Source: an uncultured Bacteroidales bacterium
GTDB lineage: Bacteria > Bacteroidota > Bacteroidia > Bacteroidales > F082
NCBI GenBank assembly: GCA_947303395.1
Contig: CAMYYD010000008.1
Span: 62,001-126,000 of the forward strand
Reading direction: 5' to 3'
Length of the DNA stretch: 64,000 bases
Shown: positions 21,585-54,781 of the stretch, in pieces
Layout: every line of letters starts with the position of its first letter
Numbering within the stretch: the first letter of the stretch is position 1
Position numbers and translations under genes: made by a program
Notes under the pieces: model-generated
Told to the model about the DNA's origin: nothing
Seen by the model: only the letters and a program-made list of their open reading frames with translations
Databases searched by the model: none

Positions 21585-24500
21585 TTATCTTACTACTATC
21601 TTTTGAGTTTTGATTTCTGTACCTACAATTCTTAAAACATAAACTCCTTTTGATAGAGCATCAGCATTGAATGATTGTACGCCGTTGATGTATTCGCTCG
21701 TTACGAAGCGACCCATAACGTCGAAGATTTGGAGTTCACCATTGCCACGGACGATGATGTCGTTTCCGTTTTGATAGGCGAAGACGTCACTTTCGGTGTC
21801 GATGTTGGCCGCATTGTAGTTGAGGCGCAACACGAAACGGTCTTTACGGTCATTTGGTGTGCCAACAAATGTGTAGCTATCTTCAAGAAGCATATCAACA
21901 TCGAGGTTTGCGACTTTGTCATATAGACTCATATAGCTATATTGACCTTCTGTTTTGATGCTGAAGGTGTATTGCCCCATTGTCTTAGCCTCGAAACCGA
22001 TATTGATAACTTCGGTGTCGTCGCTCATGTCGGCGATTGCGTAGTTCTGACCGTTGTTAATGATATAGAGCATTGGAATTTCGCTGTTGCGGTGCTCAAT
22101 CTTGTTCAAGCCGTGACCTTCGGCAAACATCACGTAGGCTTCATCGCTGCATTTGCTGTTCTTCACTGAGAACATTATGTTGTCTTTAGCGTAGTTAACG
22201 CCCTTGCTGCTACCAGCTGTGTTCTTAAATGTGATTGAAGCAGTTTCGTTTGTTGTCTGAACGAAGAAAGCCTGCATTGGTTTTACTGTGACGTTAGCGG
22301 CCAAAACAGCTTTCCATTTACCATGGTCGTTATCAGCAGGATCTTCGACCAGCATGTAGCAGCCTGTTGTTTCAACATTTGATAATGTCAAATTGCTCCA
22401 TGAGATGTCGTGTGTGAATGGGTTGCCCACGAGATTTAAGCCTTTGTATGCTGCAATTCCATAGGCATATGACAAATCGGTATTAGAGATTTCGCCACTC
22501 GCATTGCCACCAGTTACATCGCCTGCAAGGTCAATTCCTTCCACACTTGAACGGTAGAGATAGCCACGTCCGATTGCAAGTTTTGTGAATGAATCAAGAT
22601 AAGGTGCAACTGTGTTATTAGACCTGTACTCATTCCAATAGCTTGTAGGCTCGTCGAAACGGTAAACGTTGTGTGTGCCTTGAGCAAATGATGAAATTAA
22701 GATATCATTGACAGGTGATGCTATTGCATAAAGGTTATTAGCTACTGCTTTTTCAGTAGAAGAAGCCGCTGTAGTTTTTTTAACAGTAGCTTTCACGGTG
22801 TTATTGTTTTTTAGAATAAGCTGACCGCCGTCTTCGATGATGAGGGTTCCACCATCTGCGATAGAAAGGGCGTGTGAACCCATATCCAAAACCGCATCTT
22901 TTGCTATGAGTGTTGGTCCTTCAATGGTTATGTCGGCTGTTGCACTATTGTTACCCGTATAGACGTGGGTGTATGGTACAGCTTCAATCTTCTTGAAGAG
23001 ATAGAAACCTCTATATTTTGTTTCACCAGCATATCCTCGTATTGCGCCAGTACCAGTAGAATTCTCTGAAACTGTATAATATTTATTATTTTGGTAATTC
23101 TGCATATAGAGAGCACCCGTTGACAAGCCATTATCAAGGGCATAGAATTTCCACAAAATAGTGCTGTAATCCTTATCAAATGCAAGTGCACGAGATGAGG
23201 TAGCAGATGTATAACCTAAATATTTAGAGTCGTAACAAATTGTAAAACCATCAGAATTATTGCCTGATAATTCGAACTCAACTCCACCACTAGGAACTGT
23301 CGTATATATATTGTTAGTATTTGGTGCATGTTTATCAGAAGTAACAACGATATCTCCACTTGATATAGATCCAGTAGCTATAGAATATTCTATAGCTTCT
23401 GGCAATGTAGTAGCTCTTAATGCGGCGAATAAATATTTACCTGCTGTAATCTGACTTGTTGAAGTGATCAATTGATAGCCTGTTCCTGCTGGCACCAACA
23501 CTGCATACAATGTTGCATCATCGTCTGGTGTGAAACTGTCTACAATTACTGTACTGCCTGCGCTTGTGCTCCAACCAGCAAGAGAGAATCCTGAAGGAAG
23601 CTCTACACTAGCAGCTTCAAGGTCGTCTTCATCCCAAAGACTGGCATTATTACCACATGTGATATTAGCATGGACCAAATCACTTTCGATAATTCCATTA
23701 ACTGAATAATTAACTGTGAATTTCTTTTGTGTGAATGTTGCCGTTGCTGTGACAGGATAGCCTGGCATTTTAAATTGACCATTCTCATCAACATTTTCTG
23801 TCGTACTTTGATCACCTGTCTTATAAACTGTCCAACTTGTAAAGTCATAGCAATCGTCCAAATCAGAATAACTCAATGTGACTGTCGTTCCTTCTGAAGC
23901 GACCGACTTGTCAGCTGCGATAGTGCCACCTGTGGTCTGAACTAAAGAGATCGCATATGTTGCAACAGTGCTTACTGATCCTTGCAATGGCACGTTAACA
24001 GCATCAAGTGTTGTGGCTGTGAATGAAAGGTTGCCGTTGTAAGTGCCTTCATTATGACCAGCTGCCAAACGGATGTACAAGTCTGCAGCAACTGCACCTT
24101 GAGAAGGAGTCAGGTCAATATATTGTGCGTATGTTCCATTTTCTGTAGAGCAAACTTCATAACCTTGAGGAGCTGTAGCTCTGAGTGTATTAGTGCCCAA
24201 ATCATCACATAAAACTTCAATATGCTGTGCTGCAGAAGGACCATTGTTGACAACGTATGAGAAAGCTGTCAATCCACTGAAATCTGTCAATGACATATCA
24301 GCTTTAAGAACGATATCGGCAGAAGTGCGAGGGTTAATTCTTAATGTAGAATTATTCAACACAAATACACCTGTGATATCATATGTTTTACCATTAGAAA
24401 GATAGTCGGCGTAATTATCAAGGAGTGTTTTATATGCTTGAACAGTTGTTGTTCCATCGGTAAGATTATAGTTGGTATAGTTACCTGAGGTTTCCTTGCT

Positions 24501-26552
24501 GCATGTAAGGTTGCTATAACTTACCAGAGCGCCTGTGTTAACAGCTTCGAGGTCTGCCATGGCTATGTCGGCAACTGTTACGTTTCCACCAGTATTAACT
24601 GTAAGACCAGATGTATTGCTTTTAAGCTCAGTAAGTTCAACAGCTCCATTATATTTTTGAGATTTACATTGTACAGTTCCACTAAGGATATCTCCGGCAG
24701 AGAATCCATGGCTAGACGCATATATAATGCATCCCTTTGTTCCATCAGTTAGGAAGGCATGTGATGAGTTGTTTGCTCCTGAAATAACCCAATTATTGCC
24801 AAAAGTGATGTAAACAGTATGTTCGGCAGTATTAGTCATTGCATCATCATAAATAGCCTGCATGGTTGTGAATGGCTGGGTTATTGTGTATGCAGCCGAT
24901 TTCAAAGCACTATATTCACCTTCCTTGTAAGCTCTAGCTTTTAATGTTGTAGTTGTAGCAATATCAACGGTAGTATTATTAACATATGTGTATGTTCCTT
25001 CTGCGTCTTTTGTCGGTAATGAGCCATTAGTTGTGTAATAAATTGTGGCACCTGTCGTAGTGCAACCGATTGTAACATGCTGAGTTCCAATATATGCCTC
25101 GCCGTCAGGGTCGAATGTAGGAGTTGCAACTGTTGATGGTTTCCATTTAATGTTAATTGAATTTAAATAAAGTGCACCATTTGCCACAATACCTATATAC
25201 TCATAATCACTAGTAATAGCAAGCGAAGTGTTTGTGCCCATTTTTATAGTGCCCAAGCTAGAAGCGGAAGACATATTAATAGAAGTAAATGCTGTGTTGC
25301 TTCCATATATAGTAATATAACGACCGCTAGTAGTATTAGTGTTCCAATCAACGGATATGCTTTTTACTTTACCACCAGAAGCAGTAGTTATGATTCCATT
25401 TCCAGTAGTATTATTCATTTGGATTGAATTGTAGTTGCCTGCAGTTTTACCAGCATAAACAGCTTGCGAATTGCTTGTTTTACCACTCCATGATGTATAA
25501 GTCGTTGAACCGTTCGTCACACCTGTTTTTGCACGGTCTAAAACATCATCAACAAAAACAGCAACTTCAGCTGTTACGATAACATCGGTGTCTGGCATTG
25601 TAAAGGTGTTGCCAACTATTGGAGTATCATTAATGCTCCATATTGCGGAATAGCCATTATAGCCTTCTGCTGGATCGTATGTAAGAGTAATTGTTGAACC
25701 GTATTCATAATCACCACTTGCCGCATTGCTTGCTGCGGAATATGTTCCGTAAGCATTAGAAGGCATTGTTATATTATGAGTATGAGGTGCCCATATCGCA
25801 TACAATGTAATAGCTCCAGTGAGATTAAATGTTGAGTTTGCTGCGTGACCAGTTCCTGAACCATTTGCTGCTTCATTCCATGTGCTAAAATCATAACCCG
25901 TTCTGGTGAAGCTTGGATTTTCATTGCTCTCAGGATTGTTTGCAAGAACAGTATAATTTCCAGCAGACTGTCCACTATGAGCGAAAGTTGCTGGAGTTTG
26001 AGAACCGTCATTGGCGTTGTAGGTCACAGTGTAAGTAGTACCGCCGCCACCACCGCCAGTTGCAATTGTCACAGTAACCGTCTTTATCGTCTTATTACCA
26101 CTTGTTTGACTGCATGTGAATTCAACCGCAGTAACACCTCCAGATTGTGGCTGTGACCAAGTTTGACTTGATATACTTCCACCTGTTGAACTATATTCAG
26201 TTAATACACAAGATCCTGTAAAAGCAATGCTTTCAATTGTTCCGTTTGATGTAGCAATTTTAAATCTATTGCCGCTATAAGAACGTAGACCATCAGTTGT
26301 ACTCCACCAGCGTAAGTTTGTACTACCACTTCCTTTTGCTGTATATGTGAATGTGATATCTCCGTTAGTGAACACATCATTAACAGCTAAATCTGTACTG
26401 TTTGCTGGTGTTCCTGACCATCCATAAGCATTTGAGTTTTGTGTAAAAGTAAATGTTGGATCTGTCTTTGTTTGTCCCACTACCATCTTCGGCTGGGCCA
26501 TTATCAATATCGCGGCAATTGCTGCGATTAAGATTGTAAATGTTTTTTTCAT
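21585..26552 (-). CDS. giant T9SS-secreted adhesin-like protein (1655 aa)
   Basis: Signal peptide about 1-27 (ending MVVGQ). Parts in order: a jelly-roll-like N-terminal region (30-165), an InlB-type Listeria-Bacteroides repeat at about 170-255 (YTVTYNANDGSQTPATF; TGYDFSTW; ITLYAIW), a divergent similar unit to about 335, a chitobiase C-terminal-like module at 474-560 (ATIYYTTNGSLPT), a DUF5689-like OB-fold region at 560-755, Ig-like domains, a beta-trefoil-like module at 1024-1190, and a T9SS type A domain at about 1584-1655 (GELQIFDVMGRFV to KTQKIVVR). This suggests a surface or matrix-binding protein. Ligand unknown. Its transcript has a long structured leader (26610-26790). The small anchor protein gene follows. 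Confidence 0.85.
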   Translation of the reverse strand: MKKTFTILIAAIAAILIMAQPKMVVGQTKTDPTFTFTQNSNAYGWSGTPANSTDLAVNDVFTNGDITFTYTAKGSGSTNLRWWSTTDGLRSYSGNRFKIATSNGTIESIAFTGSCVLTEYSSTGGSISSQTWSQPQSGGVTAVEFTCSQTSGNKTIKTVTVTIATGGGGGGTTYTVTYNANDGSQTPATFAHSGQSAGNYTVLANNPESNENPSFTRTGYDFSTWNEAANGSGTGHAANSTFNLTGAITLYAIWAPHTHNITMPSNAYGTYSAASNAASGDYEYGSTITLTYDPAEGYNGYSAIWSINDTPIVGNTFTMPDTDVIVTAEVAVFVDDVLDRAKTGVTNGSTTYTSWSGKTSNSQAVYAGKTAGNYNSIQMNNTTGNGIITTASGGKVKSISVDWNTNTTSGRYITIYGSNTAFTSINMSSASSLGTIKMGTNTSLAITSDYEYIGIVANGALYLNSINIKWKPSTVATPTFDPDGEAYIGTQHVTIGCTTTGATIYYTTNGSLPTKDAEGTYTYVNNTTVDIATTTTLKARAYKEGEYSALKSAAYTITQPFTTMQAIYDDAMTNTAEHTVYITFGNNWVISGANNSSHAFLTDGTKGCIIYASSHGFSAGDILSGTVQCKSQKYNGAVELTELKSNTSGLTVNTGGNVTVADIAMADLEAVNTGALVSYSNLTCSKETSGNYTNYNLTDGTTTVQAYKTLLDNYADYLSNGKTYDITGVFVLNNSTLRINPRTSADIVLKADMSLTDFSGLTAFSYVVNNGPSAAQHIEVLCDDLGTNTLRATAPQGYEVCSTENGTYAQYIDLTPSQGAVAADLYIRLAAGHNEGTYNGNLSFTATTLDAVNVPLQGSVSTVATYAISLVQTTGGTIAADKSVASEGTTVTLSYSDLDDCYDFTSWTVYKTGDQSTTENVDENGQFKMPGYPVTATATFTQKKFTVNYSVNGIIESDLVHANITCGNNASLWDEDDLEAASVELPSGFSLAGWSTSAGSTVIVDSFTPDDDATLYAVLVPAGTGYQLITSTSQITAGKYLFAALRATTLPEAIEYSIATGSISSGDIVVTSDKHAPNTNNIYTTVPSGGVEFELSGNNSDGFTICYDSKYLGYTSATSSRALAFDKDYSTILWKFYALDNGLSTGALYMQNYQNNKYYTVSENSTGTGAIRGYAGETKYRGFYLFKKIEAVPYTHVYTGNNSATADITIEGPTLIAKDAVLDMGSHALSIADGGTLIIEDGGQLILKNNNTVKATVKKTTAASSTEKAVANNLYAIASPVNDILISSFAQGTHNVYRFDEPTSYWNEYRSNNTVAPYLDSFTKLAIGRGYLYRSSVEGIDLAGDVTGGNASGEISNTDLSYAYGIAAYKGLNLVGNPFTHDISWSNLTLSNVETTGCYMLVEDPADNDHGKWKAVLAANVTVKPMQAFFVQTTNETASITFKNTAGSSKGVNYAKDNIMFSVKNSKCSDEAYVMFAEGHGLNKIEHRNSEIPMLYIINNGQNYAIADMSDDTEVINIGFEAKTMGQYTFSIKTEGQYSYMSLYDKVANLDVDMLLEDSYTFVGTPNDRKDRFVLRLNYNAANIDTESDVFAYQNGNDIIVRGNGELQIFDVMGRFVTSEYINGVQSFNADALSKGVYVLRIVGTEIKTQKIVVR

Positions 26553-26609: not shown

Positions 26610-26790
26610 AGACATAAAAAAAACCGCGAACTTCTTTTGCGCAAGTTCGAGGTCGTAGGATTACCTTTAGCACGCCAACAAGAAAGCTCACGGTAAGTTC
26701 CGCGAGCGTCTTGGCTTTCATGAGCGTGCTGTTTGAAATTTCCTACGTTTCGAACTTGCCTCTGAAAAGCGAAAACGCTTTTATATGTCT
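26610..26790 (-). promoter_or_regulatory. structured leader RNA, copy 1 (candidate attenuator)
   Basis: Lies between a consensus promoter (26871-26902) and the adhesin ATG at 26552. Helices: P1 26641-26650/26750-26759, P2 26654-26660/26741-26747, P3 26669-26675/26724-26730, P5 26686-26693/26700-26707. A 5' GCGTTTTCGC hairpin is at 26769-26778. The end is CGCGG plus eight Ts (26616-26628). CGCGG can pair with the loop strand CCGTG (26689-26693), and a local hairpin CGAACTT / AAGTTCG (26627-26633, 26643-26649) competes with P1. G-U pairs exist only on the minus strand. No other function is seen in this 366-base gap. Confidence 0.72.
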
Positions 26791-26870
26791 ATTTTTTACT
26801 TAATTTTTTCTATCTGTTTCTTTTTATCTGTTTGATTATCAATATTGTTTTATTTTTTCATTTGACGGTG

Positions 26871-26902
26871 CAAAATTAGGAATAATTTTCACACAATTAC
26901 AA
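26871..26902 (-). promoter_or_regulatory. promoter of the leader copy 1 / adhesin transcript
   Basis: TAATTTTG (26871-26878) with TTG (26900-26902) 21 bases upstream on the minus strand. The resulting leader would be about 310 bases. Confidence 0.7.
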
Positions 26903-34517: not shown

Positions 34518-37500
34518 TTATTTTATTAAGATTTTTTGTGTCTTTTCATTTAATTTCAAAATGTAAACGCTGGTTTGTACGGACGCGGCGCGCCACGTCC
34601 CAACACCATTGATATATTGTGTGGCAATCATGCGACCCATCACGTCGAAAACTCGTAATTCGCCTTCGCCGGTGATGATGATGTCGTTGCCGCTTTGATA
34701 AGCGAAAATATCGGCCCCTGAGCCTGTCGAAGGGCTGAACACTATCACGAATCTGTCGTGTCTATCGGTTGGCGAGCCAACAAATGTGTAGCTGCTGGTT
34801 TCGGTTAAATCGACAACCACATCTTCTGATTTATCAATCAATTTTACGTTCTGTACGGACGCGCCACGGCACGTCTCTACGGCAATTGTATATTTTCCCA
34901 TTTCTTTTGCCTTGAAATTCAACGGCATCTCGCCTTGGCGTTCTGAACCGACAATAGCGTAATCTTTGCCGTCTTGCGGAATATACAGTTTTGTGCTGCC
35001 GTCGAAGATCTGCAATTTCGTCATGGTGCGGTCGCTGTCGAAACGCACGATGGCACGGTCGATGACACTGCCGTTGTTTCCTTTGCTGAGGTTAATAACC
35101 AATGAGGCATCATCGTCACGGTTGCCTTTTACGTTTTTCGAACTTGAAGTGAATGTCACAACATCGCCGTCAGCATCTGCATGAACGAAGATGCCTTCCA
35201 TCGCGTTAACAGCGCTGCTTGTTGCAGGAATTATCTCCGAACCTTCAGCATTCATACAATAAAAATCTTTATCGACAGTGGCATTCTCACCCCAAGGGTT
35301 ACCCACAAGGTTCCAGCCTTCAAAATCAACATCATCGGTCTTGGTGAGCGTGACAGTGCCGTCGCCGCTGTAAGGTGCGCCTACAAAGTTGAGCGTCACA
35401 TCGTCGCTGTTGGCGTAGAGGTAGCCTTGACCATTTTCCAAAGCATGGAATGGATTCTCATTGTCATCTTGATGGGCTTTATAGTTCTCCCATTCAGCAT
35501 CGGCCGATTGGTTGAAACGGTAGAGGTCGTAGGTGTTGCTGGTGAGAGTATTCACATTCGTAACCCAGGTTTTTCCTGCCAAAGGAGAAGCGATAAGGTA
35601 CCAGCCGGTTTTCACGTTGTTGTCAGCGCCATAACCCACGATGTCTTTTGACAAGGTGACTGTATTCGGGGCTGCGGTGAGATACCCTGGATCGCTATAA
35701 CCGCCATCAATGTGTGCATATCTAACATCATTGTTATTCCAATCATATGATGTATCCATGCCGCCCTTCAAACTTTGACATGCATAAAACATTCCACCAC
35801 TATCATCAATATTAACTTTGTCAGTATCCCATAATGTGCTGACATAAATAGTGGTGAGGTCGTAGCAACTGTAGAACATGCATGCCATATTTCGTACTTC
35901 CGATGTGTTCCACCCAGAAAGGTCTAATGTGGTAAGTTGATGGCATTCGATGAACAAATATGACATATCTTGTACTGCCGACGTGTTCCACCTGGAGATG
36001 TTTAATGAGAACAGTGCCGTGCAGTGGGAAAACAATCCATCTAAATCAGTGGCTTTGGAGGTATCCCATCCAGAGAGATCTAATGTGGTCAGACTTGAGC
36101 AGCCAGTGAACATATTACTCATGTCGACCACTTTGGATGTATTCCATTCAGAGATACCTGTAATTGTGGTCAGGCCATCGCAACCGAAGAACATTTGCTC
36201 CATTGTTGTAACATTTGCGGTGTTCCATCCCGATACATTAATTGTGGTAAGGTTGAAATTGCTGACGAACATCATTTGACAACTTGTCATATTGTCGGTG
36301 TTAACATTGTGAAGGTCAATGGTCGTGCAGTTTTTCATAAAATAGAACAATCTAAAACAACTGCCTGTGAAACTGACATTGCCGGTGGCAGTAACACTTG
36401 TCACATTTGATGTCACGACGTCGTCGCCCCATTTGTTTTCAGCGTTAAACTCACCCCAGTTGAGCGAAAGCGCTCCGGTGGTGCTGTCGTATGTGTAGCG
36501 CGCCAAGACTTCCACTGTGACAGTGGCATCTTCGTCAGCCATAACAAAAGTGTTGTCTTTGATGTAATTGCCGTTAACTAAAAACAGAGCTCTCTCTCCC
36601 TCAGGCACAGTGCCAGTGTAGCTCAACGTGACCTCAGTACCAGGTGTGTAGTATGAAACGTCGTTGAAGCTGGCAGCCGCTGTGGCGGTAGCTGTTATGT
36701 CATCGCCAAGTGTGATGGTGTAAACCTGACGTGCACCATCCTGGTCGCTCGAAGCGCTTGAGCCACCGTTCTCGCTGCCTACACCCACATTTGAGGCATT
36801 TGCTGTGCCCGCCACGGTGCAGTTGTAGTAATAGTTTTGGCTGAGGTATCCTCGATTATAACCAGCGATTGTTCCTACATATTGACCCACTTCCGAAATG
36901 CTCGCTTCCAACACAAGACAATTATTGATTTCTCCATAATTATAGCCTACAATACCACCATAACCTTTATGACCAGAACCATTATAGGTAATACTTGCTG
37001 AACATGTGCAATCCGTAATGATTCCTTCATTTGAATTTGTACCTGCAATGCCTCCGTGAACATCGCAATAAGATCCATGGATATTGACGGTGCCTGTAAC
37101 GTGACAGTTTTGCACTAAGCCCGAGTAATTATTGCCGACGATGCCACCTATTCTGTTTCCACCAGTAATGCGAGTGTCGGAGAGGGTTAGATTCTTAATA
37201 GTTCCAGCGTACAAGCAGCCAATGAAACCAATATCGTCATTTAAAGTGTTGTAAATGCGGATACCTCTAACAGTGTAGCCACAGCCATCAAAGATGCCTT
37301 GGAATGGTGTTAATACTCGACGACCGATGGCGGTGTAGTTGTTCTCAGTGCTGGTGACATTGTCCCAGTTTGTAGTGTATGAATAGGTGATATCGTTACC
37401 CAACTTGAAATACTTTTCATAGAAATCGTTGGCTGTGTAGCTATCGATGCCGTTCACGTTCTTGGCCAATAGGTTGAGACCGGTAGTGGTGGTGATGATA

Positions 37501-40500
37501 TATGGATGCTCCTCACTGCCGTCGGCGCCGTCAGCGATACCCCACACGTCGGTGAATGTGGCGCTGACAGTAACATCAGATGCTGGCATATCAAAACTGT
37601 TGCCGCTGATGGCATGCATGCTGCCGTCGTCGTATGTGTAAGCTAAGTTATATCCGGTGTTAACAGTGCCAGTATAGCTTAGTGCGACGTTCTGTGTGGC
37701 ACCGCTGTAGATAGTAGTAGCGGTGCCGTTATTGTAGCTGAGAGCCGTGATGCCGATGGCGGTGAGGCCACTCAAACTGTACGCTGTCTGGTTTCCCGCC
37801 AAGGCGATGTTCTCTTCCAATGTGATGACACGTGCACGACGGGCACCGTTGCAGTCGCTACCGTTCACGCCGCCAATGCTGGAGGTGTAGTAGTTGTTTG
37901 TTAGCATACCCCCATTATTAGTGCCTACAATGGATCCCCTACTTCCACCATTATATATAGTACCGATAAAGATACAGTCTTTTATAGTGCCTTGATAAGT
38001 GTTTCCCGCAATTCCGCCGAAGTTAGATCCGATACCATCAGTGAGGGTGGCTGCACTGACACAGCCACTAATAGTACCATACGACTGTTGTCCCACGATG
38101 CCGCCATGATAAGACACACCATTTTTACAAAGGCGAATGGTCACATCGTTTTCAACACGGCAATTTGTCACGGTACAATGATCAGTTTCTCCAATGATAC
38201 CACCGACATTTTGAGCGCCAACAATAATGCTATTGGCAAGTATGACGTTCTTAACCGTACCATGACTAACTTTTCCGAAAAGACCTTGACATTTGATATC
38301 TGTATGGATACGAATGCCGCTTATGGTTTTGTTGTTGCCATCGAAGGTGCCGTAGAATTTATAGCTGCCAGTGCCGATGGGAGTATAGTTGCTCTCATCC
38401 TCGTCGAGGCCTTCATAGCTATAGGTGATGTCGGCACCCAATTTGAAATGCGTTCCATTGAAGTTGTTGGAGGTGTAGCCATCGATGCCGTTCACATTCT
38501 TGGCCAATAAGTCGAGACCTGTGGTGTTAGTAATAATATATGGATGCTCCTCTGTGCCGTCGGCAGCTGGTGTGTTGGTGACACCCCAAACGTCGGAGAC
38601 GATGGCGCTCACACTGACGTTATTGTCAGGCATGGTGAGAGTGTTGCCATTGACGGTGGCGTTATTTGTGGCAGTAAAGCCAGTGCATCCGTAACCCAAA
38701 GCCAGCGCACTATTGTATCTCAGCTTGACGTTTTGTGTGGCTCCGCTGTAGAGAGTAGTGGTGGTGCCGTCGTTGTAGTTGAGGGCCGTGGTGCCAATGG
38801 CGGTGAGACCAGTCAAGCTGTACGCTGTCTGGTCGCCCACAAGAGCTATGTTTTCATCTAAAGTGATGACACGGGCACGGCGAGCACCGTCACAGTCGTT
38901 GCCGCTGGGGTTTGCTATGCCAACGCCAACGCCCCAAATACCCTCTGTGGTGTAGTAGTTGTTGGTAAGGATGCCTGCGTTTGTTCCTGCAATGGCACCG
39001 TAGTAATTATATGCATCGACGGTGCTTCCAGTATACAAACAGTTCTTGACAGTACCAGTAGAGGCGTTCCCACCAACGATGCCACCATAATTTCTGACGT
39101 TAAGCATATCATTTCTGTCGACGATGGCTGCGCTGATGCAGCCGGAGACAGTACCTAGGTTCTCACCAACGATGCCTCCATGATAAAGAGAAATATAGTC
39201 TTTCGGTAATATTTCAACAGAACCTTCTATGCGGCAATTCGTCAAGATACCATTATTCCGACCTGCGATGCCACCGACATTAGTTTTGCCTTTAAATATG
39301 CTGTTAGCAAGAACAACGTTCTTCACCGTGCCATTGATACCGACACTTTTGAATACACCTTGGGAATCGTTGGTAGTGTAGACTCGGATGCCGCTGATGG
39401 TCTTGTTGTCGCCGTCGAAGGTGCCATGGAATTTATAGCTGCCAGTGCCGATGGGTGTATAGTTGCTCTCATTCTCGTCGAGGCCTTCATAGCCATAGGT
39501 GATGTCGGCGCCCAGCTTGAAGAACTTGTTGTTGTATTCATTGCCTCCGTTCACGTTGGATGCCAGCAGGTCGAGTTGAGAAGGATACATAATGACGTAT
39601 GGGTCTTCCTCACTGTCGCCGCTGCCAGTCCAAGGGATGGTAGTCCATTGCGCGTAAAGATCGATGATGGCTCCGTCCTCGGTGGTGAGACCTAAGACTT
39701 CCTGGCTGTTGCTGTAGCTATCGCCGTTTCCGCCAGGCTGGGTGTTCCATCCTGCAAAGTTGAATCCCTCGCGGATGAAAGCATTGACGGTGAGATTCTG
39801 CGCCACGCCATATTCGAAGACCTGATCGCTCATAGTCCCTGTAACAGGGAAGACAACACTTCCATTCCCATTGAAACGGAAGGTGTAGGTGCTCCAGCGA
39901 ATTGGGAATGTGGTGCTGGCTGAGCCGGTGTAGCTGCCCGTGCCAGTAGCGGTGACGATGCCGTTGCCAGCCGAGGTGTTGTTAGCCCATGCTAAAGTGT
40001 AGTTAGTGCTCTCAGTGAGTTGCACCCTATTTTCAACATTCACGATACCCTTGTAGAAATACACCGTCGGATGCGGCTCGATGGCAGTGGTGTTCACCAC
40101 ATATTCGTTTGCCAACCCAGCGAATGAGGTGTTGGTGGCGGCAAGAGTGTAAGTGGCTGTACAAGTGACACCTGTAAAGGTCTTGTTGAAACTGCTGTTG
40201 CTGCCTTGATAATAGTTACCCGAAAGGTCGTTGAAGAGACTGTTTTCAATGCCAGTAATCGCCAAAGTGGTACCCGCATTGGCGTTGATAGTGCCTTTGA
40301 AAGTAATCACATTGGTGTTGTCACCTGCCACATATTCCACATCGCCCCATGATGTGTTCAATTTTTTGTATGCTCCTGAGATATGAACAATCTCGTTGAA
40401 CGGCACGCTGATATAGAAAGTGTTGCCTTTGACATAAGGTCCTGCCGAGACCGTGATACCTGTTGTGCTGTTGTTGAGGAGATTCGGATTGGTGGCGTCG

Positions 40501-41594
40501 CAAAGTGCCATGCGGACGAAGAAGTCCTTGTAACCCCAAGTGTCGTCGTTGTCACCGCCGGCATCGAAACGGGTGGTGATGTACGACACGTCAGCGTCGA
40601 GGATCACTGAGCCTGTGCCACTGCCGCTGGTGCCACTCTTGTACTTCTGTTGCCAAAGCTTTCCGGTGGATAGGCTGAACTCGTCGGTGCCTGTGCCACG
40701 GTGTGGGAAGTAGGCCTTGCCTGTGGAGTTGCTGCCATCAGCAAGCTCATAGCAAACTTTGTAAACGGAGTTGGTTGGACCATTGTTTATCACTCCGTTT
40801 CCATCGGCACCATCGTAGGAGTGAGTAGCGCTACCTGCGACAATCTGCACGTACTGATAGCCGTCGTCGCGCTCTTTTTCAGTGAAGCACACGGTGGCGT
40901 ATATCTTGTAACCTATAGCTTTCAGGTAGCTGGCCGTAGCGCCTGTGCTGTTGATAAGGCTGCTGGTGCTCACCTGGGCAGGCTTATTTGCGTAGTCGTA
41001 GCTGTCGTCGATAAGCACGTATCCTTTGAGTCCGTTGTCGTCGTTTGCCTCAACCCAACCTGATGGCGGTGTGAAGCTGACATCGAGATATTTGCTGCTG
41101 CTCATGCCGCTTGAGAAACTGCTGCCGCTGAAAGTGACAAGATTGGAGACGCTTTTGCTCACCTTGGCATTGCTGAACTGAGTGCCAGTAGTCATATTGC
41201 GGTCGTAATAAGCCAGCTGGAATCCGTTGACATCGAGCACCTCGAAGCGATAGGAACGCTGACTGGTGCTCTGATATTTGAAAGCGTCGGTATCCGCCGC
41301 ACGTTCAGTAACTTCCACTGTCTTGGTAGTAATGCCTTCAGGGAAGATGTAGTCGTTGCTCACTGCAGTGTAGTGCTCTACAGCATATGCCGAGAGGTTC
41401 ACCGTGCGGTATTTGATGGTCTGTGCCGGCAGACTGCTTCCGCTACGCGTGATGGTGAACGTGGTTTTGTGGGTGCTACCGTTGTACGATGCCTCAATGG
41501 TGAAGGTCTGAGCCCAGACATTCTGTCCAAAAGCGACAGCCGCCAAAACCATTATTGTTGAAATGATTTGCTTGAAAGTAAAAGTTTTTCTCAT
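34518..41594 (-). CDS. giant T9SS-secreted adhesin-like protein (2358 aa)
   Basis: Signal peptide about 1-28 (NVWAQ). N-terminal Calx-beta-like strands (30-100), Ig-like parts, an InlB-type repeat at about 570-645, then three long tandem modules starting near residues 650, 1000 and 1350. Each opens with a W-rich DPY or HPYI segment, then LLA.NVNG and KLGADITY, then GLUG repeats (GTFDGDNKTISGIRV; VGGIAGR). After these come Ig-like strands, a BspA/DUF285 leucine-rich block at about 1715-1965 (TTLDLSGWDTSKATD; NMFTGCSSL), and a T9SS domain at about 2278-2358. Two in-frame palindromes lie at 34581 and 34853. It starts the adhesin operon, divergent from the AraC gene. Confidence 0.87.
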   Translation of the reverse strand: MRKTFTFKQIISTIMVLAAVAFGQNVWAQTFTIEASYNGSTHKTTFTITRSGSSLPAQTIKYRTVNLSAYAVEHYTAVSNDYIFPEGITTKTVEVTERAADTDAFKYQSTSQRSYRFEVLDVNGFQLAYYDRNMTTGTQFSNAKVSKSVSNLVTFSGSSFSSGMSSSKYLDVSFTPPSGWVEANDDNGLKGYVLIDDSYDYANKPAQVSTSSLINSTGATASYLKAIGYKIYATVCFTEKERDDGYQYVQIVAGSATHSYDGADGNGVINNGPTNSVYKVCYELADGSNSTGKAYFPHRGTGTDEFSLSTGKLWQQKYKSGTSGSGTGSVILDADVSYITTRFDAGGDNDDTWGYKDFFVRMALCDATNPNLLNNSTTGITVSAGPYVKGNTFYISVPFNEIVHISGAYKKLNTSWGDVEYVAGDNTNVITFKGTINANAGTTLAITGIENSLFNDLSGNYYQGSNSSFNKTFTGVTCTATYTLAATNTSFAGLANEYVVNTTAIEPHPTVYFYKGIVNVENRVQLTESTNYTLAWANNTSAGNGIVTATGTGSYTGSASTTFPIRWSTYTFRFNGNGSVVFPVTGTMSDQVFEYGVAQNLTVNAFIREGFNFAGWNTQPGGNGDSYSNSQEVLGLTTEDGAIIDLYAQWTTIPWTGSGDSEEDPYVIMYPSQLDLLASNVNGGNEYNNKFFKLGADITYGYEGLDENESNYTPIGTGSYKFHGTFDGDNKTISGIRVYTTNDSQGVFKSVGINGTVKNVVLANSIFKGKTNVGGIAGRNNGILTNCRIEGSVEILPKDYISLYHGGIVGENLGTVSGCISAAIVDRNDMLNVRNYGGIVGGNASTGTVKNCLYTGSTVDAYNYYGAIAGTNAGILTNNYYTTEGIWGVGVGIANPSGNDCDGARRARVITLDENIALVGDQTAYSLTGLTAIGTTALNYNDGTTTTLYSGATQNVKLRYNSALALGYGCTGFTATNNATVNGNTLTMPDNNVSVSAIVSDVWGVTNTPAADGTEEHPYIITNTTGLDLLAKNVNGIDGYTSNNFNGTHFKLGADITYSYEGLDEDESNYTPIGTGSYKFYGTFDGNNKTISGIRIHTDIKCQGLFGKVSHGTVKNVILANSIIVGAQNVGGIIGETDHCTVTNCRVENDVTIRLCKNGVSYHGGIVGQQSYGTISGCVSAATLTDGIGSNFGGIAGNTYQGTIKDCIFIGTIYNGGSRGSIVGTNNGGMLTNNYYTSSIGGVNGSDCNGARRARVITLEENIALAGNQTAYSLSGLTAIGITALSYNNGTATTIYSGATQNVALSYTGTVNTGYNLAYTYDDGSMHAISGNSFDMPASDVTVSATFTDVWGIADGADGSEEHPYIITTTTGLNLLAKNVNGIDSYTANDFYEKYFKLGNDITYSYTTNWDNVTSTENNYTAIGRRVLTPFQGIFDGCGYTVRGIRIYNTLNDDIGFIGCLYAGTIKNLTLSDTRITGGNRIGGIVGNNYSGLVQNCHVTGTVNIHGSYCDVHGGIAGTNSNEGIITDCTCSASITYNGSGHKGYGGIVGYNYGEINNCLVLEASISEVGQYVGTIAGYNRGYLSQNYYYNCTVAGTANASNVGVGSENGGSSASSDQDGARQVYTITLGDDITATATAAASFNDVSYYTPGTEVTLSYTGTVPEGERALFLVNGNYIKDNTFVMADEDATVTVEVLARYTYDSTTGALSLNWGEFNAENKWGDDVVTSNVTSVTATGNVSFTGSCFRLFYFMKNCTTIDLHNVNTDNMTSCQMMFVSNFNLTTINVSGWNTANVTTMEQMFFGCDGLTTITGISEWNTSKVVDMSNMFTGCSSLTTLDLSGWDTSKATDLDGLFSHCTALFSLNISRWNTSAVQDMSYLFIECHQLTTLDLSGWNTSEVRNMACMFYSCYDLTTIYVSTLWDTDKVNIDDSGGMFYACQSLKGGMDTSYDWNNNDVRYAHIDGGYSDPGYLTAAPNTVTLSKDIVGYGADNNVKTGWYLIASPLAGKTWVTNVNTLTSNTYDLYRFNQSADAEWENYKAHQDDNENPFHALENGQGYLYANSDDVTLNFVGAPYSGDGTVTLTKTDDVDFEGWNLVGNPWGENATVDKDFYCMNAEGSEIIPATSSAVNAMEGIFVHADADGDVVTFTSSSKNVKGNRDDDASLVINLSKGNNGSVIDRAIVRFDSDRTMTKLQIFDGSTKLYIPQDGKDYAIVGSERQGEMPLNFKAKEMGKYTIAVETCRGASVQNVKLIDKSEDVVVDLTETSSYTFVGSPTDRHDRFVIVFSPSTGSGADIFAYQSGNDIIITGEGELRVFDVMGRMIATQYINGVGTWRAASVQTSVYILKLNEKTQKILIK
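34581..34600. repeat. REP palindrome in frame in the 2358-aa adhesin tail
   Basis: GGACG / CGTCC arms around GGCGCGCC, with one mismatched pair. In the protein this reads TWRAASVQ just before the final SVYILKL strand. Confidence 0.85.
34853..34880. repeat. 28-base REP palindrome in frame in the 2358-aa adhesin
   Basis: Same length as the element at 8936-8963 and identical at 25 of 28 positions by eye. It encodes VETCRGASVQ where the sister adhesin has NFNGTDMNN. Confidence 0.88.
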
Positions 41595-46525: not shown

Positions 46526-47578
46526 TTATAATCCGTTAATCATTATATGAACGTTTCCTAATCCTTGAGCTTTATTAGAGCATTTAACTCCACACTCACT
46601 ACGAAATGTTTTTATCATTTCTCTTGCCCAATTATAAGAACTATATTGTGTGCCATCTGATTTCAGGACAGGAATTCTAACATTGACAAAATATAACTCG
46701 TAATCCGTGTTCGTCTGCATTTTATAGGTGCCTTTTTTAGCGTGAAAATCCATATAATCCATAATCCAATCGCTGTATGTATCTCCAGTAATAGACTCAC
46801 TTGACAAATTGATATTTGATTTTGGTGAAACAGTAATACGAACCGTTATTTCACGACCATTGGTGACAATATCCTTGAAATACTTACCAATTTCTCTTTC
46901 TATATCCTTAATATTTTTACAAAACGATTGCACAAAAGTCGTAACAATATCTTTAGTAGATGTTTCTTTTATCGTCTTTGAAGAAAATGCCTTGTTAGTA
47001 TATGCATCAAAAGCTGTAATAGTGTATGATATGTTTTTCTTAAAATTTGGATCCATTACGTCTATTTTGCTGGCGTAATCAAGTTCAATAATTATGTCTG
47101 GCGATGCTGTTTGCAGCAATAAAGTCTTAGCATCCTGCGCAACTCCATCTGCTAAATTTGTCGCCTCCCTGTTTTGAAGCTGTTTCAATGTTTGTTCAAG
47201 GTCATTCAACGGATAGTCCATTTGAACAAATTCATTTTGAATGATTGAAATAATGGCTTTATTGTCTTTGTTAGCCAATATATATTTGTTATAATCACGA
47301 TCCAAAAAACTGCCTCCGTTTATCGAGACTGTTTTAATTGCATCATATAAAAGCAAAAGATTATCACTTGGCAACACCATAATTGAGGGTTTTGCCTGTT
47401 CAATAGCGTTAACAACAGTGTTTTCTTTTATTTCAGCTGCATTTCCGTAATTTGTCAGTTTTTGTTGTTGACCGTTATTTTCACATGAATAGCTGATTAG
47501 CATAATCAACAAGCACATAGCGCTTGTTTTAAACGCAAAAAATATTTTATTGACCGTTCTTTTGTATTTTTCAATCAT
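46526..47578 (-). CDS. DUF6175-like lipoprotein, first gene of four-gene operon
   Basis: A 350-residue predicted lipoprotein with a signal peptide ending in a lipobox-like ISYSC (Cys near 32). The motif KPSIMVLPSDNLLLLY and later IIIELDYASKIDV resemble the DUF6175 family of Bacteroides, which I recall but could not check. The rest alternates beta strands and helices. It begins the operon 47578-43971 and is preceded by the second copy of a structured leader RNA (47616-47794), so its expression may be set by attenuation. Another ATG at codon 21 is also possible as start. Function unknown. Confidence 0.65.
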   Translation of the reverse strand: MIEKYKRTVNKIFFAFKTSAMCLLIMLISYSCENNGQQQKLTNYGNAAEIKENTVVNAIEQAKPSIMVLPSDNLLLLYDAIKTVSINGGSFLDRDYNKYILANKDNKAIISIIQNEFVQMDYPLNDLEQTLKQLQNREATNLADGVAQDAKTLLLQTASPDIIIELDYASKIDVMDPNFKKNISYTITAFDAYTNKAFSSKTIKETSTKDIVTTFVQSFCKNIKDIEREIGKYFKDIVTNGREITVRITVSPKSNINLSSESITGDTYSDWIMDYMDFHAKKGTYKMQTNTDYELYFVNVRIPVLKSDGTQYSSYNWAREMIKTFRSECGVKCSNKAQGLGNVHIMINGL

Positions 47579-47615: not shown

Positions 47616-47794
47616 GACAATAAAAAAAACCGTGAAACTTTTTGTTCTGAAACTGAGGTTCGGCAAAACCTTTACTACTGAACAAGAAAGCCCACGGCAA
47701 TCGTGAGCGTTTCTCCTTTCTTGAAGTAGTAAAGAACTAAAATTTGCCGATTTCAGTTTCAACAAGAAAAGCGAAAACGCCTTTTTATATGTCT
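47616..47794 (-). promoter_or_regulatory. structured leader RNA, copy 2 (candidate attenuator)
   Basis: Between a consensus promoter (47848-47877) and the DUF6175-like gene. P1 47649-47656/47753-47760, P2 47660-47667/47743-47750, P3 47671-47679/47725-47733, P4 47683-47690/47716-47723, P5 47690-47696/47702-47708. A GCG hairpin is near 47771-47780. The end CACGG plus eight Ts (47622-47634) can pair with CCGTG (47693-47697). Helix sequences differ from copy 1 while base-pairing is kept. P5 has a U-G pair only on the minus strand. Confidence 0.72.
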
Positions 47795-53748: not shown

Positions 53749-53990
53749 AGACATATTAAGAAAAGGCGTTGTACTACGCTTTATCTGCGGCTACTCGAAT
53801 CTGGTAAATTCAAATCATCCGCAAGGTAGAGCAATTAGCGACGTTCACTTGTATGATTATACATTTTCCAAAATTTGTATATCTTACAGCGTGGGCTTCG
53901 GTGTTGCTTATCCTCGGATGATGGGCATACCAGAGCCTGAGTAGCGGGGTGAGCAAAGTTCTGACTCCCACGCTTCTTTTTTGTATGTTC
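53749..53990 (+). promoter_or_regulatory. structured leader RNA, copy 3 (candidate attenuator)
   Basis: In the 471-base gap before the 244-aa exported protein. P1 53790-53796/53939-53945, P2 53801-53806/53928-53933, P3 53816-53821/53915-53920, P4 53830-53834/53904-53908; 5' hairpin GCGT/ACGC at 53766-53779; loop strand GCGTGGG (53889-53895) pairs with CCCACGC (53967-53973), followed by TTCTTTTTT. It opens with AGACATA like the other two. The loop between P2 and P3 (AATTCAAAT) matches copy 1 (AATTTCAAAC). Confidence 0.7.
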
Positions 53991-54046
53991 CTAAACAATT
54001 GATTAACAAATTTCGGGATTGGGAGCTCCCATAAATGAGTAGGACT

Positions 54047-54781
54047 ATGAAAACTCAAAAGCTATTCCTAATCGTCTCGCTGCTTTTCGTAGCAGGTATT
54101 ACCAAAGCACAAGATGTCATTGTTAAAAAAGACAGCTCAACAATTCTAAGCAAAGTAATTGAAGTCAGTAGTTCCGAAATTAAATACAAAAAATGGTCAA
54201 ATTTAGATGGACCTACGTATTCGATTAGTCGTAGTGAGATTGTAAGTATCAACTATCAAAATGGAGAAGTCGAAAAGTTTGAAAACAGTTCATCTAATCC
54301 TACAATTATACAACAAAACAACAGCTCCAAGAATGGATACATGGAACGCGACGGTAATAGTTTAACACTTGATGGACGTTATATGTCAGATGAAGAAGTT
54401 CATGCACTCGTTGGAGATGCCAACTACAAAACTTATATGAGTGCAAAAAGACAAATAAATGGTGGAGGATTTTTTACAGCAACATTCATTATTTCATTAG
54501 TTGGAACTGTAGGATTGGCAGCATATTCCATTACCAATAAAGATCCTTCTCTTTTACAGAGTGTTTATATCACTGGTGCAGTTGCGGATATCAGTTTATT
54601 ATTAATGTGTATTCTCAATGGTGCTGGTAAAGGACGTATGGATTGGGTAGCAAATGAATACAACAGAAAAAATAGTGGTTATGGGTATTCGTATAATCTT
54701 TCTCCATCAATTATGACAAGTAAAACGCCACAACTGCAAAACAGTTACGGTTTGGGAGTGACATTTAGTTTGAAGTTCTAA
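54047..54781 (+). CDS. exported membrane protein of unknown function
   Basis: A 244-residue protein with a signal peptide (about 1-22, VSLLFVAGITKAQ), an N-terminal beta-rich domain (DVIVKKDSSTILSKVIEV; SISRSEIVSINYQNG) common in Bacteroidetes envelope proteins, a Ser/Asn-rich linker, and two hydrophobic helices at about 143-165 and 172-192. The ATG at 54047 is preferred over one at 54035 because a GAGTAGGA site precedes it and the signal peptide fits better. It has a structured leader of about 320 bases. Function unknown. Confidence 0.6.
   Translation: MKTQKLFLIVSLLFVAGITKAQDVIVKKDSSTILSKVIEVSSSEIKYKKWSNLDGPTYSISRSEIVSINYQNGEVEKFENSSSNPTIIQQNNSSKNGYMERDGNSLTLDGRYMSDEEVHALVGDANYKTYMSAKRQINGGGFFTATFIISLVGTVGLAAYSITNKDPSLLQSVYITGAVADISLLLMCILNGAGKGRMDWVANEYNRKNSGYGYSYNLSPSIMTSKTPQLQNSYGLGVTFSLKF

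Follow-up and report, generated by a model that had tools for sequence, protein, structure and literature searches.

A Bacteroidota leader RNA family with competing strands, predicted to act by transcription attenuation

Three leader elements and their genes

The window (the whole stretch of 64,000 nucleotides analyzed here, from an uncultured Bacteroidales bacterium) contains three copies of a structured element, each followed by a gene on the same strand. Copy 1 occupies positions 26615 to 26792 of the minus strand, copy 2 positions 47621 to 47794 of the minus strand and copy 3, which is divergent, positions 53753 to 53982 of the plus strand. All three are found by two covariance models, R1 (built from A2, an alignment of 30 relatives) and R2 (built from 60 diverse sequences), whose E-values are rough, and they are the only significant places in the window. 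R1 scores copy 2 at 167.2 bits, copy 1 at 125.3 bits and copy 3, which it delimits as 53753-53967, at 30.9 bits (E-value: 5e-5; next match: 0.31), while R2 scores them at 120.9, 99.9 and 41.4 bits, respectively (copy 3 E-value: 7e-5; next match: 0.12). These places are taken to be the three leaders described in the first-pass annotation of this DNA, and its placement of copy 1 on the minus strand, with perfectly paired helices P1, P2 and P3, is confirmed.

The gene after copy 1 (21585-26552, minus) starts 62 nt past the element and encodes a 1655-aa exported protein with Listeria-Bacteroides/InlB-type repeats; its match to a T9SS sorting domain is weak and below the cut-off. Copy 2 precedes a gene for a 350-aa lipoprotein-like DUF6175 protein (46526-47578, minus), and copy 3 precedes a gene for a 248-aa protein with a signal-peptide-like N-terminus and no Pfam match (54035-54781, plus). 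Elsewhere in the window, a 2358-aa ORF (34518-41594, minus) contains direct repeats with a spacing of approximately 1040-1075 nt (37383-39521).

Read from 5' to 3', the element has an A-rich stretch followed by a hairpin around AAAGCGTT..GCTTT, which gives strand S0; next come a long rod, a linker, strand S3 and a U-tract. The rod is made up, in order, of P1, an internal loop (AAA versus RCC), P2, a larger internal loop, P3, P4 and an apical hairpin, S1:S2, and its internal loops are strongly conserved in the alignments. The apical strands read GCTCACGC/GCGTGGGC, or GCTCACGG/CCGTGGGC in most close relatives, and the S3 consensus is AGTYCCACGC or GTTCRCGG.

In copy 1, the 5' hairpin (S0/S0', AAAAGCGTTTTCGCTTTT) lies at 26765-26782. 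The 5' strands of P1 (26750-26758), P2 (26741-26747) and P3 (26724-26730) pair with 3' strands at 26642-26650, 26654-26660 and 26669-26675, respectively. The 5' strand of the apical hairpin, S1 (GCTCGCGG), is at 26700-26707 and is followed by S2 (CCGTGAGC, 26686-26693), a shared strand that can pair with either S1 or S3. S3 (GTTCGCGG) is at 26624-26631 and is succeeded directly by a U-tract of 8 T (26616-26623). A promoter-like box, TAATTTTG, of the Bacteroidota -7 type lies 78 nt upstream of the element (26871-26878). All of these features are on the minus strand. Copy 1 also has AGACATA...TATGTCT ends. The corresponding parts of copy 2 (minus) are S1 at 47701-47708, S2 at 47690-47697, S3 at 47630-47637 and the U-tract at 47622-47629. 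Those of copy 3 (plus) are S1 at 53843-53848, S2 (GCGTGGG) at 53889-53895, S3 (CCCACGC) at 53967-53973, the U-tract at 53974-53982 and a further strand, S4, at 54019-54025.

Distribution, fold and strand of the element

The element is widespread, far beyond the three copies described in the first-pass annotation. Matches to copy 2 are found by blastn in 51 of 173 genomes of the same taxonomic family, and R1 detects the element in at least 93 of these 173 (E-value ≤0.01). At order level, R1 matches at least 130 of 393 genomes and 79 of 206 genera (E-value ≤0.001), falling in dozens of families. Across the phylum, at least 39 of 395 genomes are matched by R1 (E-value ≤0.001) and at least 58 of 395, in 29 of 171 genera, by R2 (E-value ≤1e-4). 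Only 7 or 16 candidates per genome were scored in these large surveys, so the counts are lower bounds. A pattern scan of named genomes returned 106 stretches; 78 of the 80 listed have titles that name a Bacteroidota taxon (among them Rikenella, Alistipes, Millionella, Prevotellaceae, Psychroserpens, Gelidibacter, Sphingobacterium, Chitinophaga and Candidatus Symbiothrix), and the other two are titled only "uncultured bacterium".

A single genome may hold several copies. The genome of the window has ten places with an R2 E-value ≤0.1, to which R1 adds L047 (E-value: 0.39). Eight genomes picked for their many matches, and scored more fully than in the surveys, have 24, 23, 20, 20, 19, 16, 13 and 8 copies (E-value ≤0.001). 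Tandem pairs on the same strand occur in three loci (L171, 247-411 and 451-636; L173, 1501-1665 and 1280-1465; L149, 2322-2508 and 2099-2269), where the second copies are degenerate (31-34 bits). In fragmented genomes some elements lie within approximately 600 nt of a contig end (for example, G188:C597:203-378, G188:C54:196-372 and G345:C120:225-398), as if the elements or their neighbors were repeats that break the assembly. Carriage by phages, plasmids or viruses was considered and rejected: blastn found no match for copy 1 in plasmids or for copy 2 in phages, and viral contigs contain no exact match to the core pattern.

The relatives stand in a fixed relation to genes. In 94 of 99 relatives, an ORF on the strand of the element begins no more than 450 nt downstream (median distance 61.5 nt), compared with 178 of 505 random positions and 17 of 72 on the antisense side, and in none of the 99 is there an opposite-strand ORF longer than the same-strand one. 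This test used ATG frames of at least 90 aa; three of 102 relatives had too short a flank, some true frames starting inside the element were missed, and in one case (L157) the wrong frame was chosen. The claim that the element always precedes an exported protein fits the three window genes, as judged by their N-termini, but not the family, in which 59 of the 94 downstream ORFs look exported by a crude hydrophobicity rule for signal peptides. Non-exported downstream genes include restriction-modification, LytTR and helix-turn-helix-like genes.

In a Pfam census of 85 of the 94 downstream ORFs (nine were left out because of a wrong frame, near-duplication or great length), 90 families were found, and the commonest among the best 25 occur in five proteins each: BspA leucine-rich repeats (5) and the T9SS sorting domain (5), followed by the TonB plug (4). 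The families listed also include Fib_succ_major (3), LytTR (3), C10 peptidases (2), MmeI and other DNA methylases (2 each), type III restriction helicase (2) and YhcG nuclease (1). A metabolite riboswitch would be expected to precede genes of a common pathway, and none was found among these 85 proteins and 90 families. A second subtype of the element in the genus of the window precedes PLD/helicase-like and HsdM-like genes (named by eye from their N-termini). In another part of the phylum (L185, L184, L198 and L191), the element lies 270-415 nt before SusC/RagA TonB-dependent receptor-like genes; these too were named by eye from their N-termini, and the gap is longer than usual.

The fold was assessed in a set of 102 sequences. 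This set was drawn from 220 records (alignments A3, A4 and A5, with some places represented twice) that were clustered at 85% (A5) or 80% (A3 and A4) identity. Four rows were dropped by hand, namely the second tandem copies of L171, L173 and L149 and the truncated L207, and copies 1 and 2 of the window (L043 and L041) were added back. The set contains neither copy 3 (L046), which was excluded, nor L047, which is not among the matches, so both are independent of the covariation test. Null alignments were simulated along a FastTree tree with per-column numbers of changes. Eleven column pairs covary beyond this null at E-value ≤0.05, of which P1 and P2 contribute five each and S2:S3 one, and the same eleven are obtained from 60 and from 200 simulations. 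The suggestion that covariation supports the fold is thus upheld. No pair in P3 or P4 reaches E-value ≤1 in this wide alignment, where the lengths of these helices vary; P3 covaries within the genus, in a genus-level alignment. RNAalifold predicts 40 pairs for the 30 relatives of A2, 20 of them with two-sided changes.

The S2:S3 pair (columns 94 and 163; G=114, E-value: 0.00 in 200 simulations) is paired in 92 of 102 sequences, as GC in 58, CG in 17 and UA in 9. The next best partner of the same S2 base is in S1 (columns 88 and 94; G=76, E-value: 0.10, which misses the 0.05 threshold). In A7, a hand-chosen 60 of the 102 sequences, 97.9% of cells are paired in S2:S3 and 98.1% in S1:S2, with three and two two-sided pairs, respectively. 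These two helices are mutually exclusive. A pairing of S0 with the strand before S1 is suggested in addition: columns 15 and 80 are paired in 99 of 102 sequences (G-C 73, G-U 16, A-U 7, U-A 3), with a per-pair p of 0.01 and an alignment-wide E-value of 2.7.

Partner swapping gives a second measure of these pairings. For S2:S3, S1:S2, S3:S4 and S0:S1, none of 2000 permutations equals the sequences' own duplexes, and the own duplex is better than the row mean in 73 of 102, 96 of 102, 58 of 100 and 79 of 102 relatives, respectively. The swap tests ignore kinship, for which the pairs without signal are a partial control. S2 gives no such signal with the downstream DNA (757 of 2000 swaps as good). 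A pairing of S0 with S3 (AAAAAAGCGU/ACGCUUUUUU) is attractive in many sequences but was rejected, as 1218 of 2000 swaps are as good. In L161 and L165 the S2:S3 pairing is kept in a shifted register (GTGGGCTT/AAGCCCAC, by eye), which argues against S3 merely imitating S1.

The first-pass annotation recognized a layout of competing helices but named a different pair, in which P1 would compete with a terminal hairpin, CGAACTT/AAGTTCG. The complementarity is present in copy 1, where the 3' strand of P1 carries the CGAACTT of that hairpin, but it is not a feature of the family: a duplex of -7 kcal/mol or better is found in 4 of 102 relatives, copy 1 included, and 107 of 2000 swaps are as good, compared with none of 2000 for S2:S3. 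Mutually exclusive helices beside a U-tract are retained, and the conserved competition is that of S1:S2 with S2:S3, whose 3' strand is the CRCGG/CCACGC strand. The duplex energies of S1:S2 and S2:S3 are comparable in magnitude, at -13.4 and -11.0 kcal/mol in copy 1, -11.1 and -8.1 kcal/mol in copy 2 and -5.3 and -13.1 kcal/mol in copy 3.

The sense strand of copy 1 folds with -70.7 kcal/mol (z -7.3; none of 200 shuffles as good), and the opposite (plus) strand has a comparable fold (-73.2 kcal/mol, z -7.6). Because both strands fold comparably, energy alone does not give the strand, which is indicated by the G-U bias, the promoter boxes and the gene orientation. G-U cells outnumber A-C cells in S2:S3 (104 to 6), S1:S2 (136 to 7), S0:S1 (44 to 4) and P1 (28 to 14), so the sense strand is the RNA, as had been proposed; P2 shows the opposite trend (7 to 17). 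The sequence TAnnTTTG, which we take to be the Bacteroidota -7 promoter consensus, occurs on the strand of the element in the 160 nt preceding it in 79 of 101 relatives, compared with 10.7 expected from shuffles and 23 on the reverse strand. At the other end of the element, 97 of 102 relatives have six or more T among the nine nucleotides that follow S3.

The 5' part of the element also occurs by itself: at approximately position 195 (plus) of L034 (G063:C80), AACATATTGATATAAAGCGTTTTTGCTTTT is present without a rod, directly before a YhcG/DUF1016-like gene (by eye). This points to the 5' hairpin as a module that can be separated from the rod.

A predicted attenuator and its alternatives

Three features of an attenuator leader are present, namely mutually exclusive helices with covariation, a U-tract and a location downstream of a promoter-like box and ahead of a gene on the same strand. 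On this evidence, we somewhat favor the view that the element represents a Bacteroidota-wide leader RNA family that is likely cis-acting and is a predicted transcription attenuator, in which S2 pairs with either S1 or S3. From the position of the U-tract next to S3, we infer that S2:S3 together with the U-tract would terminate transcription and that S1:S2 would be the read-through state. A chain in which each strand competes for its neighbors, S0-S1-S2-S3-S4, with S4 in part of the relatives, is also suggested, but more weakly.

The proposed attenuator would act in the following way. S1:S2 would form first and RNA polymerase would then read on into the gene. A factor or ligand may open the apex, perhaps by stabilizing the pairing of S0 with the strand before S1, and S2 would be freed. 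Freed S2 would pair with S3 beside the U-tract, and the transcript would likely end there. The balance between S1:S2 and S2:S3 would be set by a protein or ligand bound to the conserved internal loops of the rod. Given the diversity of the downstream genes, a pathway metabolite is less likely than a trans factor or a general signal. After read-through only, S3:S4 could keep S3 off S2 or could affect translation or decay. Ribosome-mediated attenuation by a leader peptide was rejected, as an ATG ORF of at least eight codons occurs in only 12 of 79 leaders (those with a promoter box, with starts allowed from the box up to the first 40 nt of the element).

Three observations on copy 1 count against an attenuator. 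Its S2:S3 stem closes a 54-nt loop, which is longer than in usual intrinsic terminators, and would form a pseudoknot while the P1-P3 rod is intact. In addition, a scan for simple terminators, limited to loops of 3-8 nt, lists S1:S2 with its U-rich tail and not S2:S3. At the place concerned, 26707-26686 (minus), the U-rich sequence TTTCTTGTTG follows the S1:S2 hairpin, which the scan rates as terminator-like; S1:S2 may therefore be a site at which the polymerase pauses. Within the family, further points against an attenuator are the E-values of S0:S1 and S1:S2, which miss alignment-wide significance, the excess of A-C cells in P2, the absence of pairs at E-value ≤1 in P3 and P4 and the limited share of relatives (73 of 102) in which the own S2:S3 duplex is better than its row mean.

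The strand S4 gives rise to another explanation, which we consider unlikely although it deserves serious attention: the element would be a post-transcriptional leader in which the completed mRNA takes up a tertiary fold, with S3 as the bridge from S2 to S4, that governs translation or mRNA stability, while the U-tract would serve as a linker or bind a protein. In 47 of 100 relatives, a strand a median of 29 nt further on is complementary to the 5' portion of S3 (score ≥9), and no swap among 2000 is as good; S3:S4 pairs better than the average of shuffled sequences in 69 of 100 (Wilcoxon p 4e-7), and in 26 of the 47 S4 is mostly unpaired, often in a hairpin loop, in the local fold. S4 is transcribed after the U-tract, so S3:S4 cannot affect termination there, which points to a later role. 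In the genome of the window the pairing is strong in copy 3 (-10.9 kcal/mol), L044 (-15.1), L047 (-17.3) and L310 (-10.7). However, copy 1 (-4.5 kcal/mol), copy 2 (-2.0) and L045 (-3.0) hardly have an S4 and yet keep S3 and the U-tract, and a U run directly after a GC-rich stem in nearly all relatives would be superfluous for such a leader.

Processive antitermination was considered by analogy: the RNA would recruit a factor or contact RNA polymerase such that later terminators, mainly in long surface or defense operons, are resisted. The conserved internal loops of the rod, the early position in the transcript and the diverse, often long downstream genes would all suit an RNA of this kind, but it would not need S2:S3 beside a U-tract, and many of the downstream ORFs are short. 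We regard this explanation as improbable.

The presence of a promoter-like box at one end and a terminator-like structure at the other would also be expected of a free small RNA with its own terminator, to which the downstream genes are mere neighbors; against this, a same-strand ORF follows the element far more often than it follows random positions and is never outdone by a longer ORF on the opposite strand, making this origin very doubtful. Least credible of all is that the element is a DNA repeat (a MITE or recombination site) with inverted repeats that only look RNA-like, as the several copies per genome and the AGACATA...TATGTCT ends of copy 1 might indicate, since G-U cells far exceed A-C cells in S1:S2 and S2:S3, these ends are missing in the second subtype (by eye), orientation to genes is constant and the searches of viral contigs, plasmids and phages described above found no match. 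Neither conserved terminal inverted repeats nor a gene-independent orientation, which would mark a MITE, was found. A related retron-like or MITE reading, in which an A-rich/U-rich closing helix and a hairpin with a UUUU loop would be the defining parts, was rejected in view of the leader position and the lack of conserved closing ends.

Beyond the predicted attenuator, a wider proposal can be put forward tentatively, as one that we hold to be possible but less than probable. The element may belong to a new class of riboregulator, a five-strand chain (S0-S1-S2-S3-S4) present throughout the Bacteroidota in up to two dozen copies per genome, in which the loops of the rod would read one common signal for scattered surface-protein, regulator and anti-phage genes. 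Bacteroidota are a dominant phylum in the gut and many other environments and, to our knowledge, their global RNA regulation is poorly known. An element that precedes adhesins, TonB-dependent receptors, lipoproteins and restriction systems would mark out a regulon through an RNA instead of a DNA-binding protein. The competing strands are defined so precisely that a handful of point mutations, with compensating changes, would suffice to test them.

Relation to known RNA families

A known Rfam family was rejected as the identity of the element. Rfam 15 has no match within the window, and in 39 distinct loci (L046, which is window copy 3, among these) no family reaches its gathering score on the element. 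In permissive Rfam searches the best E-values were 1.3 for copy 1, which is nothing above chance, and 0.099 for L169, both far below the gathering score. By these sequence comparisons, Rfam has no entry for the predicted RNA family, which is unusual in its chain of apparently competing strands and in the spread of its copies.

No published description was found in the parts of the literature consulted, and the element may be listed without a name among the candidates of PMC8040213 or PMC9723704. The first of these reports thousands (3161) of candidates from the human microbiome. The second describes 64 structured 5' transcribed regions in Flavobacterium psychrophilum, some of which are conserved in the family and lack Rfam matches. 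The examples given there precede pheA, hisG, ftsY, acsA, alaS and rimP, and overlap with the element is possible. Comparative genomics also yielded Flavo-1, Bacteroidales-1, 6S-Flavo and other motifs of the Bacteroidetes (Weinberg et al. 2010; PMC2864571). These motifs are from the same phylum, and those with RF numbers went to Rfam, where the copies of the element that were compared match nothing. Flavo-1 matches in F. psychrophilum have no fixed strand, according to PMC9723704, unlike the element, whose orientation is fixed.

Two cis-regulatory RNAs, DUF805 (RF03081) and DUF805b (RF02914), occur in some of the same loci (L174, 1712-1777; L129, 458-525; L159, 1475-1440; L160, 551-517). Both are distinct from the element and shorter than it (68 and 35 positions), and neither is matched by the element itself. 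In L174 and L159 the DUF805/DUF805b RNA lies within 40 nt downstream of the element.

Antitermination RNAs such as EAR/LoaP and put are early structured leaders with bulges that serve long operons. The element resembles them in its early position as a structured leader; it matches none of the Rfam families, epsC (RF01735) included.

The mechanism of the element is predicted, from the arrangement of its strands, to belong with the attenuators. Intrinsic-terminator attenuators and terminator-type riboswitches have mutually exclusive helices that share a strand, a U-tract and a position between promoter and gene. The element is like them in its exclusive helices with a shared strand, in the U-tract that follows one of these helices and in its place between promoter-like box and gene. 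It is unlike them in having neither a conserved leader ORF nor a shared downstream pathway, and in the placement of its shared strand, which lies at the tip of a long rod, far from its 3' partner; S0 and S4 may be further members of the competition.
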